This document shows positions 20,073 through 63,946 of a stretch of DNA of 64,000 bases, in pieces. A program made the translations under genes and the position numbers. The notes under the pieces were generated by a model. That model had not been told where the DNA came from. It made no database searches and worked only from the letters and a program-made list of their open reading frames with translations. This DNA comes from Shinella kummerowiae. Lineage in GTDB: Bacteria; Pseudomonadota; Alphaproteobacteria; Rhizobiales; Rhizobiaceae. Position 1 is the first letter of the stretch; every line of letters begins with the position of its first letter. Location of the stretch: contig NZ_WUMK01000006.1 of NCBI RefSeq assembly GCF_009827055.1, positions 310,001 to 374,000 of the forward strand, given 5' to 3'.

Positions 20073-20162
20073 TGGCGGAGAAGAAGGGATTCGAACCCTC
20101 GATACCGTTCCCGGTATACTCCCTTAGCAGGGGAGCGCCTTCGACCACTCGGCCACCTCTCC
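20073..20162 (-). tRNA. tRNA-Ser (anticodon GCU)
   Basis: A 90-nt class II tRNA read on the minus strand. The acceptor stem GGAGAGG pairs with CTTCTCC, followed by discriminator G and an encoded CCA. The anticodon stem-loop CTCCCCTGCTAAGGGAG gives GCU, reading AGC and AGU. There is a long variable arm (ATACCGGGAACGGTAT) and a standard GGTTCGAATCC T-arm. It lies 170 bases upstream of the IS/RTX scar. Confidence 0.97.
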
Positions 20163-61927: not shown

Positions 61928-62104
61928 ATGACCGCCCGCTTTCGGCCCATTCATTCGAGCTTCGAGACGCTCCGCCATTCCGGTCTTCGCACCGGGCACG
62001 GCTTCGGCAGCATCGCTGCCCGGGCCAACGAGCAGCTCACGGCCACGGGCTTTGCCCGCATAAACCGCCCCGTCCAGCTCTTCTCCGAGTTCATCACGCG
62101 CTGA
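61928..62104 (+). CDS. Small basic protein of unknown function
   Basis: A 58-residue product, Arg-rich and without membrane segment: MTARFRPIHSSFETLRHSGL, then RTGHGFGSIAARANEQL and a C-terminus QLFSEFITR. AAGGAA lies ten bases upstream. I recognise no family. A second small gene follows after 41 bases, so they may form a unit. Confidence 0.5.
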   Translation: MTARFRPIHSSFETLRHSGLRTGHGFGSIAARANEQLTATGFARINRPVQLFSEFITR

Positions 62105-62145: not shown

Positions 62146-62289
62146 ATGACCAAGATTCGTAAACTGATCGCCGACATTGCCGACATCCGCGTCGCCGTGA
62201 ATGCTGCCCGGGAATATTCCGTGCTGGCCTCGCTGCCGCGCGATGCCGCCCAGCGCCGCGATCCGCTCAAGGCCTTCCTGCCGAACTGA
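62146..62289 (+). CDS. Small protein of unknown function
   Basis: A 47-residue product starting MTKIRKLIADIADIRVAVNA, a probable amphipathic helix, then ARE and a polar tail DAAQRRDPLKAFLPN. The ribosome site AAGGAGCAAGCC is excellent, which supports a real gene. No family recognised. Its 3' side faces the structured micro-ORF locus on the opposite strand. Confidence 0.6.
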   Translation: MTKIRKLIADIADIRVAVNAAREYSVLASLPRDAAQRRDPLKAFLPN

Positions 62290-62342
62290 GGTCCGGCCGC
62301 GGCTTTGAAACCGGCTGCCGCCGTGGTACCATCATCATCGTG

Positions 62343-62479
62343 AGGAGGTGAGACGCCTTTCTCCGGTGGAGACCGGGCCGAAGCCCGATCTCCGTTTTCT
62401 TAGCTGATTGTCAGGGTGAACCGCCAAGTCCTGAACCTGATCGTCAGCGTAAGCCGGATTTTCAAACGTCTCACCTCCT
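62343..62479 (-). ncRNA. Structured transcript candidate with SD/anti-SD pairing
   Basis: On the minus strand, in order: AGGAGGTGAGACG (62479-62467), a 22-codon frame, a hairpin with 11-bp stem and cUUCGg tetraloop (62393-62368), then CGTCTCACCTCCT (62355-62343). The last block is the exact complement of the first over 13 bases and includes CACCTCCT, the 16S rRNA anti-Shine-Dalgarno. Thus the 3' part can mask the ribosome site. The hairpin has a wobble pair on this strand but a mismatch on the other, pointing to the minus strand as the functional RNA. Promoter and true ends are not known. Confidence 0.55.
62400..62465 (-). CDS. 21-residue basic beta-type micropeptide
   Basis: A TTG-start frame eight bases after AGGAGG. 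The product is 21 residues; it begins with Met (from TTG), then KIRLTLTI, and continues with alternating basic or Thr and hydrophobic residues to TLTIS. One Lys, four Arg and no acidic residue give a charge near +5. The strict alternation fits an amphipathic beta strand. I recognise no family. The optimal ribosome site and the masking element downstream argue for translation under control, but coding is not proven. Confidence 0.5.
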   Translation of the reverse strand: MKIRLTLTIRFRTWRFTLTIS

Positions 62480-62665
62480 TTCGTCTTGCCGAGATTTCCC
62501 GGCGGATTGTTGTAACACAACCCTTCCGCGAATTCGCTGAATTCCGGTCCTTCGCAAATCTTCTTGCTTACGTCAGTCACTGTCGCAGTGGACAGCGCGC
62601 CGTCGCCGCAATAGAGCGACACTCCGAAACAGAATGCGCAACCTGCGCCCTCTCCCGGAGCCCCC

Positions 62666-63946
62666 ATGCTGGCGAGCCTTGTCTCCATCCTGAGCCTGAT
62701 GTTGTCCACGCTGCTGATGATGGTGGCGTTCGGCCTGCAGAGTTATGTCGTGCCGGTGCGGGCGGTTGCAGAAGGCTGGTCAACGCAGACGATCGCAATG
62801 ATCGCGACGGGCTATACGGTCGGGTTCACGCTCTCCTGCGTCGTCACGCCGAAATTCGTGCTGCTTGTTGGCCATGTGCGGGTCTTCGTGGCGCTGATCA
62901 CGCTGCTCGCCATTGCGATCCTGCTGTGTGCGCTCGTCGTCGACTGGCGGGCGTGGATGCTGTTTCGCGCCATTTCCGGTTTCGCCATCTCCGGCAGCTA
63001 TCTTATCATCGAAAGCTGGCTGAACGAACGCGTGACCAACGAGAATCGCGGCTCCGTCTTCTCGATCTACCTGATCACCACGATGGTCGGCACGATCGGC
63101 GGGCAATATCTCGTGCCGCTCGGCGATCCGTCCAACACCTCGCTGTTCATCCTGTGCGGCATCATCTTCTCGGTAGCACTTTTGCCGACCGCCCTCACCT
63201 CCTCGCCGCTTCCCGCCCCGCCGACGCAGGCTCGCTTCGACCTACCCAAACTCTACCGGCGCTCGCCCGTCGCCGTCGTCGGCGCGTTTCTTGCCGGCGC
63301 GCTTTCCGGCGCCTGGCTCAACCTCGGCGGCGTGTTCACACAGCGCACCGGCCTGTCGACCGCGGAAGGCGCGACATTGCTTGCCTGCGTGCTGCTCGGC
63401 AGCGCGCTTGCGCAAATTCCGATCGGCCGCGCCTCGGACCGCATGGACCGTCGCCTTGTCATGGTCGTCTGCGGCATTGTCGGCACGATTTCCTGCCTGG
63501 TGATGTCAATGGTAGCCGGTGGGCCGGCAATGGTGCTTTATGCGGTCGCAGCCTTCGTCGGCTCGGTCATCTTCCCGATCTATGCGCTGAACGTGGCGCA
63601 TGCCAACGACCGCGCCCAGCCAAACGAATATGTCGAGGTCTCCTCGGGCATGATGATCGTCTATGGCTTCGGCACGATTTCCGGGCCGCTGATGGTCGGC
63701 CCCATCATGGACCGCTTCGGCCCCGGTTCGTTGTTTGCGGTGCTCGCCGTCTATTTCGCGCTCTACGGCGCCTATGCCGCCTGGCGCATCAGCCGGCGCG
63801 AAGCCAATGAAGGCCTCGTTAGCAAGACGGACTATCAGGCGATGTCGGCGCAGCCGCTTGGCGCCGATGCCGCCGCTGCAGCCCTCCAGCCGGATGCCGT
63901 GACGGACGAGCGGGTCGAGGACACGACGACTCCGGAATGGCGTTGA
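62666..63946 (+). CDS. MFS transporter (YcaD-like)
   Basis: A 426-residue transporter with 12 predicted helices. GLQSYVVPVRAVAEGWS in helix 1, SGSYLIIESWLNERVTNENRG in the helix 4-5 loop and GRASDRMDRRLVMVV between the halves are typical of the YcaD/EmrD-like MFS group. The C-terminal tail of about 45 residues is polar and acidic. Substrate unknown. CCCGGAGCCCCC precedes the ATG. The upstream region overlaps the micropeptide locus on the other strand. Confidence 0.88.
   Translation: MLASLVSILSLMLSTLLMMVAFGLQSYVVPVRAVAEGWSTQTIAMIATGYTVGFTLSCVVTPKFVLLVGHVRVFVALITLLAIAILLCALVVDWRAWMLFRAISGFAISGSYLIIESWLNERVTNENRGSVFSIYLITTMVGTIGGQYLVPLGDPSNTSLFILCGIIFSVALLPTALTSSPLPAPPTQARFDLPKLYRRSPVAVVGAFLAGALSGAWLNLGGVFTQRTGLSTAEGATLLACVLLGSALAQIPIGRASDRMDRRLVMVVCGIVGTISCLVMSMVAGGPAMVLYAVAAFVGSVIFPIYALNVAHANDRAQPNEYVEVSSGMMIVYGFGTISGPLMVGPIMDRFGPGSLFAVLAVYFALYGAYAAWRISRREANEGLVSKTDYQAMSAQPLGADAAAAALQPDAVTDERVEDTTTPEWR

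Follow-up and report, generated by a model that had tools for sequence, protein, structure and literature searches.

A 22-codon reading frame on the minus strand of a Shinella kummerowiae contig is preceded by a Shine-Dalgarno (SD) block, and the exact complement of this block recurs behind the frame. Does such a locus encode a small mRNA whose ribosome site is masked by its own 3′ part, perhaps a type I toxin mRNA, as a first-pass annotation made from the sequence alone had proposed, and what would open the site? We examined the element within the surrounding window (the whole stretch of DNA analysed, 64,000 nt of contig NZ_WUMK01000006.1) and in its relatives in other genomes. The reading that we favour, with moderate confidence, is of a phage-derived module that acts in the manner of a type I toxin-antitoxin locus, belongs to a new family, and is present here as a solo copy in the chromosome; within it, the toxicity of the peptide and the role of the antisense RNA are what we infer.

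Layout of the micro-ORF and its predicted mask

On the minus strand, the SD block AGGAGGTGAGACG and its exact 13-base complement CGTCTCACCTCCT were both found where they had been described, with 111 bases between them and a cUUCGg hairpin (62368–62393) in the intervening stretch. The frame runs from a TTG at 62465 to a TAA at 62400, that is, 22 codons counting the stop, or 21 residues. The complement was also said to carry the sequence of the 16S rRNA 3′ end; CACCTCCT is indeed present in CGTCTCACCTCCT, and we take it to be the same as that end. The 6.34 Mb genome contained the pattern AGGAGGTGA-N100-130-TCACCTCCT a single time and its reversed control not at all, indicating that the architecture is more than a chance arrangement. 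The features of the locus, in window coordinates, are as follows.

62467–62479, minus strand: 5′ arm of helix P1, the Shine-Dalgarno block AGGAGGTGAGACG (sequence, covariation, fold)
62343–62355, minus strand: 3′ arm of helix P1, the anti-SD CGTCTCACCTCCT (exact complement, covariation)
62400–62465, minus strand: micro-ORF with a TTG start, encoding MKIRLTLTIRFRTWRFTLTIS and a stop, a cationic beta-alternating peptide (intact in 47/54 copies, coding test)
62368–62393, minus strand: hairpin P4 with a UUCG loop, right after the stop codon (covariation)
62454–62458, minus strand: 5′ arm of helix P2 (TCCGG), within the ORF, partner CCGGA at 62362–62366 (covariation)
62362–62366, minus strand: 3′ arm of helix P2, CCGGA (covariation)
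62488–62503, minus strand: 5′ hairpin GCCGGG....CTCGGC just upstream of the SD (alignments, predicted fold)
62305–62332, plus strand: putative antisense promoter TTGAAA-16-TACCAT with TG before the -10 (promoter scan)
62339–62401, plus strand: predicted antisense RNA of about 60–65 nt (from the promoter and the T-rich tail)
62394–62401, plus strand: T-rich tail beside P4, a possible terminator of the antisense RNA (A-rich stretch count)
62305–62342, minus strand: apparent decayed start of an XRE/HTH gene, ATG lost (by eye, against intact genes of relatives)
62146–62289, plus strand: small ORF of 47 aa, a neighbour outside the module and marker of the orthologous Shinella site
62666–63946, plus strand: MFS transporter gene, divergent neighbour outside the module (Pfam MFS_1, E 9.2e-30)

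Equivalents of the hairpin at 62488–62503 were recognised by eye in relatives; it is missing from the consensus fold of 20 sequences obtained by blastn. When the whole window was searched against Rfam 15, only a tRNA (20076–20162) reached a gathering score, and the five weak matches around the element all fell under theirs. On the other side of the antisense promoter, two small arginine-rich ORFs follow one another on the plus strand (61928–62104 and 62146–62289; 58 and 47 aa), neither with a Pfam or NCBIfam match above the cut-off; a motif of the second lies beside the element in all 16 Shinella loci checked.

Distribution of the element

The first-pass annotation had asked that related genomes be searched for the locus and for paired substitutions in the two blocks, and that the minus-strand transcript be folded. 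The search placed the element in Shinella, in other genera of Rhizobiales, and, beyond the order but still within the class, in two genomes. Plain blastn gave matches in 22 of 61 genomes, the genome of origin included; two matches of about 30 bases (L021 and L022) were dropped, and L020, in genome G014, is a remnant of the 3′ part. Among 21 Shinella genomes, 18 had a match, and the element is present in 17 once the remnant-bearing G014 is excluded; G006, G011, and G016 gave no match to it.

Covariance model searches that covered more than 40 genomes scored some candidates per genome only, and their counts are lower bounds: at least 17 of 394 genomes of the family with model R1 (including the genome of origin, the weak L055, and the partial L053), at least 6 of 397 of the order with model R2 (the genome of origin and one partial match, L066, included), at least 5 of 289 of the class with R2 (the genome of origin included, two matches weak and short), and at least 3 of 385 of the class with model R3 (the genome of origin included). 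Outside the order and within the class, L071 and L072 were the only convincing members. In a sample of 339 genomes of the phylum, with few candidates scored per genome, R3 matched the genome of origin and no other, and in 41 presumed Bartonella genomes it gave at least one match. The weak match L055 (G080:C1:741735-741884; E 0.0099) has, by eye, an ATG frame encoding MMWFIPLSVTLDMKRTRTGWQLKFRVQFII and a hairpin before a short anti-SD, and is perhaps a distant relative.

An exact pattern search of named genomes returned 25 stretches, carried by Shinella, Phyllobacterium leguminum, Brucella endophytica, Rhizobium populisoli, R. smilacinae, R. wenxiniae, Xaviernesmea oryzae, Chthonobacter rhizosphaerae, Pseudochelatococcus lubricantis, three other Rhizobiales, and three genomes whose stretches we did not take to be members (Clostridium, Lacrimispora, and a gammaproteobacterial metagenome-assembled genome). 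The generic matches L113, L121, L122, L123, L125, and L126 were judged unrelated. Two of the uncounted stretches, in Clostridium sp. HBUAS56010 (L112:6590-6760) and Lacrimispora algidixylanolytica (L115:4554-4722), contain a different-looking masked ORF with an ATG start and the same GAGGTGAGACG/CGTCTCACCTC lock. The ORFs are alike in both species, each follows, by eye, a nagB-like ORF, and R2 matches them only weakly (E 0.0014 and 0.0061); they are possibly an independent, convergent system.

Several genomes carry more than one copy (five in G673, four in G261, three in G094, and two each in G185, G004, and G391). The element was found on four viral contigs of IMG/VR (L118, L119, L120, and L124). 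By blastn, it had no match among the INPHARED phages and one in PLSDB, from Shinella sp. PSBB067; tblastn of the XRE protein described below found no match in PLSDB. The counts that follow refer to a main set of 54 distinct copies, which leaves out the weak matches L055, L073, and L074, the partial L053 and L066, the remnant L020, and the short L021 and L022; L128 and L136 were found later and stand outside these counts.

A covarying, predicted long-distance SD lock

The minus-strand transcript was predicted to fold with −79.5 kcal/mol (z −6.8), more stable than all 200 shuffles, and the plus strand with −71.5 kcal/mol (z −5.5), again with none of 200 shuffles as stable. In alignment A4 (22 sequences), G-U cells on the minus strand outnumbered A-C cells by 38 to 5 in P4 and by 59 to 11 in the four helices together, indicating that the minus strand is the RNA that folds and confirming the earlier remark that the hairpin pairs better on this strand. 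The plus strand as the folding RNA is disfavoured by these counts, although its fold also surpasses its shuffles.

Paired substitutions in the two 13-base blocks were found, even inside the SD core. Among the 20 sequences obtained by blastn only, 11 of 44 predicted pairs had changed on both sides, two of them in helix P1: one compensated pair inside the blocks (in one sequence) and one adjoining them. The 22 diverse copies of A4 had both sides changed in 21 of 35 pairs. In alignment A5, made up of 31 copies hand-chosen for diversity, this was the case for 17 of 29 pairs (73 cells versus 18.2 in shuffles), with a covariation score of 0.318, compared with 0.164 for shuffles and no more than 0.129 once the partner was slid. 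Within A5, 96.5% of P1 cells were paired and 8 of the 13 pairs had changed on both sides; helices P2 and P4 also covaried, in A4 as in A5. The number of further pair types was not above shuffles in A4 (173/500 as high) and was matched by only 2/500 in A5. Over the 54 copies, P1 in its best placement kept all 13 pairs in 37, 12 in 13, 11 in 3, and 10 in 1, so that one to three positions were unpaired in 17, some of the copies having been found by the model or by a pattern that demands complementarity and therefore leaning towards pairing. The covariation nevertheless extends beyond this effect of the search, as seen from the compensated pairs of the blastn-only sequences and from L128 and L136 (presumed Bartonella), which were found via an XRE protein search and have GGTGG in place of GGAGG with CCACC opposite.

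In full-length folds of the 54 copies, the SD had a mean unpaired probability of 0.06, with 42 copies below 0.1. Without the last 22 nt, the mean rose to 0.54 and a single copy remained below 0.1; these accessibilities are fold predictions with an assumed transcript start. Prediction and covariation together point to a primary transcript that would be non-translatable, with its SD closed.

A conserved putative antisense promoter beyond the anti-SD

A promoter scan of 62250–62640 returned a single promoter-like site, on the plus strand at 62305–62332. In the same 46 bases of the 54 copies, the best match scored 8.57 of 12, compared with 6.45 after shuffling (highest of 60 set means, 6.74). The spacer was 16 bases in 41/54 copies, TGn stood directly before the best -10 in 45/54, and the score was 8 or more in 47/54; it was 6–7, the shuffle level, in the other seven (L062, L065, L067, L068, L069, L111, and L120). 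One control stretch equalled its shuffles (6.41 versus 6.43), and another was slightly above them (6.59 versus 6.22; highest set mean 6.48). Copies lacking an XRE gene (46) averaged 8.67, and the 8 that have one averaged 8.0. An intact XRE gene overlaps the antisense -35 with its first codons, and some copies without the gene have -35 forms that no longer fit the XRE codons (TTGACC, TTGACG, and TTGATA). The sequence evidence speaks strongly for a conserved, sigma-70-like putative promoter at a nearly fixed place beyond the anti-SD. Meanwhile, the best sense promoter was barely above shuffles (7.15 versus 6.86; highest set mean 7.13) and could not be placed with confidence.

The stretch 5′ of P4 on the mRNA is A-rich, with 4.58 of 8 bases being A against 1.86 expected in the 53/54 copies scored, an excess owed in part to the stop codon itself, and with an inner hairpin scored in some few copies. 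On the antisense strand, this stretch is a T-rich tail by the P4 complement, at which the antisense RNA may end. A terminator scan did not flag the P4 hairpin as an antisense terminator and flagged one site, 62486–62505 on the plus strand, at about shuffle level; the P4 stem of the window has one A-C mismatch on the plus strand. From promoter and tail, the antisense RNA would start beside the copy of the SD block and end near the complement of the stop codon. It is predicted to cover the anti-SD arm and the 3′ untranslated part, and neither the SD nor the ORF, so that its action could be the reverse of that in hok or aapA: as it is complementary to the anti-SD arm, pairing alone should free the SD, not block it.

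An antisense RNA that switches the peptide on would follow this geometry directly. The plus-strand RNA, with its copy of the SD block, would invade P1 and release the SD of the mRNA, in keeping with a promoter that scores 8 or more just outside the anti-SD arm in 47/54 copies, with an A-rich stretch near the stop codon that would confine the RNA to the 3′ untranslated part, and with folds in which the SD opens once the antisense-covered part is removed. However, removing a segment in a fold differs from forming a duplex with it, RNase III would probably cleave such a duplex, and we know of no activating cis-antisense RNA of a type I locus, which counts against this reading; we regard it as unlikely. 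Under the type I-like reading that we prefer, the same RNA would act against the mRNA. The two readings thus leave a choice between destruction of the mRNA through duplex cleavage and its activation by the antisense RNA.

XRE genes, phage contexts, and chromosomal sites

Directly downstream of 8 of the 54 copies (L054, L063, L065, L071, and the viral contigs L118, L119, L120, and L124), on the same strand, lies an open HTH gene of 68–133 codons. An XRE gene also stands behind L066 (68 codons), L128, and L136. All five HTH proteins tested matched HTH_3/HTH_31, the one of L120 below the Pfam cut-offs. The gene is missing behind the other 46 copies, that of the window included, and most of these keep the ORF, P1, and the antisense promoter. 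In the window, what we judge by eye to be the decayed start of an XRE/HTH gene adjoins the anti-SD. Where the XRE gene is present, the anti-SD has a gene on either side and is therefore probably not at the 3′ end of the transcript.

On L118 and L124, the pair of element and XRE gene is divergent to a terminase small subunit gene, and a terminase gene lies within about 2 kb on L119 (large subunit) and L120 (small subunit). Chromosomal sites vary between genera, as far as their genes were recognised by eye, and the Shinella loci share a small-ORF flank (16/16 checked) and an MFS flank (14/16). The module looks like a phage cassette that leaves solo chromosomal copies, a direction of transfer that we infer from these contexts.

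Upstream of the element, TAC..AGTA palindromes were found in 4 of the 54 copies scanned (L065, L118, L119, and L124), all of them XRE-bearing; they take the form GTAC..AGTAC in L119 and L124 and a shorter form in L118, and the XRE-bearing L054, L063, L071, and L120 did not match the TAC..AGTA expression. The palindrome is perhaps an operator of the XRE protein. Close XRE relatives in three presumed Bartonella loci (L129, L130, and L135) had no upstream micro-ORF element that we could see and no R2 match; in L129, a GTAC..AGTAC palindrome is kept before the XRE gene (by eye).

The downstream gene suggests a further interpretation, namely that P1-gated translation of the micro-ORF controls the HTH gene in the manner of an attenuator or riboswitch, with a non-toxic peptide. 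An XRE/HTH gene does lie directly downstream on the same strand in 8/54 copies and in L066, L128, and L136, and a pair of RNA and HTH gene has been published as a riboswitch, Bartonella Brt/Trp (PMC5387305). Yet P1 closes the SD of the micro-ORF and not that of the XRE gene, and most of the 46 copies without such a gene retain the ORF, the helix, and the antisense promoter. We consider such a leader-peptide regulator quite improbable.

The micro-ORF evolves like a coding sequence

In the 54 copies, 16 or 17 bases separate the beginning of the element from the start codon. Of the micro-ORFs, 47 are intact, with 21–29 residues and TTG (33), GTG (10), ATG (2), or CTG (2) as the start; stop positions vary between copies, yet this length range is kept. 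Broken frames occur in the remaining seven copies, without a stop in L006, L010, L012, and L064 and without a frame in L014, L049, and L107, and intact copies exist in the family beside them. Together with the near-complete loss of the element in G014, this decay fits a dispensable, toxin-like gene.

The coding test used 31 intact frames of one length class (28 distinct), chosen in such a way that the lack of in-frame stops carries no weight. Their in-frame BLOSUM score was 3.07, compared with 1.96 (sd 0.33) in column shuffles, none of 300 of which scored as high, although the test takes no account of the constraint of the fold. Codon changes were silent or conservative in 55% of cases versus 34%, and codon position 2 was least variable. 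The other five frames scored lower, the nearest being antisense frames 0 (2.54, with 11 stops) and 1 (2.47, with 1 stop). By this evidence from sequence comparison, the micro-ORF appears firmly to evolve like a coding sequence, making a purely non-coding element unlikely.

The peptides resemble MKIRLTLTIRFRTWRFTLTIS or MKLRKVVLRIRLFGWRLTLIWK; the 41 distinct ones have a mean charge of +4.9 and a mean hydrophobicity near 0. The beta-type moment was above shuffles (p<0.05) in 22 of these 41 and the alpha-type moment in 1, counts that are not independent as the peptides are related to one another. Neither hydrophobicity nor moments made a hydrophobic alpha-helical transmembrane segment apparent in the 41 peptides. 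By size alone, the peptides fall within the range of type I toxins (< about 60 residues). Searches of Pfam and NCBIfam gave no match for the window peptide, and searches of PHROGs and PADLOC gave none for those of its relatives.

The ORF could still be incidental to a non-coding or dual-function small RNA, one strand of which acts in trans on other mRNAs. Both strands expose an anti-SD or SD stretch, the structure is strong and stable, and the 7/54 copies with broken frames have kept the fold. Anti-SD loops are known in rhizobial trans-acting small RNAs, a further point in favour. Nevertheless, the coding signal (0/300 shuffles), the fixed start, and the 21–29 residues kept in 47/54 copies oppose this idea, and we give it little credence.

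A probable type I-like module with a predicted antisense RNA against its lock

An inverted-repeat DNA element of a mobile or repetitive kind (REP- or IS-like), without an RNA function, to which the inverted repeat itself and the differing sites between genera (by eye) might point, is already largely refuted and hardly credible, given that the Shinella copies share one site, that at most five copies were seen per genome, and that the G-U asymmetry, covariation, and coding signal need an RNA explanation. The first-pass annotation had held that blocks conserved only as part of a mobile inverted repeat would speak against a masked mRNA; the copies keep an internal ORF, further helices, and the promoter and are therefore not merely such a repeat. 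Its own proposal of a masked small mRNA, perhaps for a type I toxin, fared well in the minus-strand orientation, predicted masking, coding, covariation, multiple copies, and antisense promoter, the last two being as expected of a type I-like locus, and less well when set against the hydrophobic alpha-helix usual for membrane type I toxins, which the peptides do not appear to have.

For the type I-like module, the fold with its covariation, the coding ORF, the putative antisense promoter, and the linkage to phages and XRE genes are well established at the level of sequence, and they suggest the following course. A minus-strand mRNA of roughly 200 nt would carry a strong SD and the micro-ORF for a cationic beta-alternating peptide that is probably harmful to the cell when made. 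In the complete mRNA, the distal anti-SD arm would pair with the SD to form P1 and keep the ribosome site closed, until the 3′ end is lost or processed and the site opens. A plus-strand RNA of about 60–65 nt would start at the anti-SD arm and match the 3′ untranslated part of the mRNA with perfect complementarity, and the resulting duplex would most likely lead to double-strand cleavage and decay of the mRNA. In the ancestral phage form, the XRE protein encoded downstream probably represses the operon.

More tentatively, and with clear reservations, the SD-arm copy in the antisense RNA may make this RNA an anti-anti-SD on which opening or destruction of the mRNA depends, in a new phage-born family with a cationic beta-strand peptide as effector and the XRE repressor as a third layer. 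An antisense RNA that carries a copy of the SD arm and acts in this way is, to our knowledge, not known from any type I system.

No description of the element was among the open-access literature matches listed, some of which were represented by a title or the start of an abstract. Judged by that literature (in part by title or abstract start), a toxic peptide would make the element the first type I-like family described in Rhizobiales, and one with a beta-type rather than a helical peptide. The element also offers a naturally covarying long-distance SD lock within about 150 nt, visible as such because substitutions in the SD core of some lineages are matched in the far arm. Furthermore, phage cassettes, an XRE regulator, a putative antisense promoter, and solo copies in chromosomes come together in it, and it poses the question of what role a cis-antisense RNA has if its complement is the lock and not the key.

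Comparison with known systems

The aapA/IsoA loci of Helicobacter have a small toxin mRNA whose SD is closed by long-distance 5′-3′ anti-SD pairing and which is activated by removal of its 3′ end, together with an antisense RNA and several chromosomal copies (PMC6733600), a plan that the element resembles. By prediction and covariation, P1 is a long-distance 5′-3′ pairing of this type, and the likeness is one of architecture. IsoA targets the 5′ part of the aapA mRNA, whereas the antisense RNA predicted here lies on the 3′ part; moreover, TTG predominates among the start codons here, and the ancestral neighbour was probably an XRE gene.

In hok/sok, the full-length mRNA is closed, its 3′ end pairs with the 5′ region, and there are links to phages and plasmids; the phage link and, by prediction, the closed full-length mRNA and the 3′-5′ pairing are shared with the element. 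Hok differs in having about 50 residues, a membrane helix, and the mok leader frame. The Hok mRNA is described as folding with a metastable hairpin (PMC6733600). A hydrophobic helical segment is given as common in membrane type I toxins (PMC8309996); with no such segment apparent, we do not file the element among them. Type I toxins have been predicted in small RNAs of other bacteria (PMC5521070).

Bartonella Brt/Trp shares the plan of RNA plus HTH gene with the XRE-bearing form of the element. According to PMC5387305, an RNA of about 200 nt with a stable fold lies directly before an HTH gene, occurs in multiple copies, and shows high transcription by both RNA-seq and northern blotting. Model R2 gave no match at E up to 5 to presumed Brt/Trp loci (L131, L132, L138, and L140–L143), while copies of the element in another genome of that genus matched it at 3.5e-21 and 9.7e-17. 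Six of these loci (L131, L132, and L140–L143) had no masked SD by an exact 9-base test, and the presumed Brt/Trp HTH proteins, of about 140 aa, stand behind a conserved structured leader. We therefore rejected the idea that the Bartonella Brt RNA belongs to the same family, the identity of the loci as Brt/Trp being presumed.

In fst/par of pAD1 and other convergent type I loci, toxin mRNA and antisense RNA overlap in the 3′ part of the former, as is predicted for the element. In those loci, this overlap consists of a shared terminator and repeats, whereas here it would consist of an arm of the masking helix itself.
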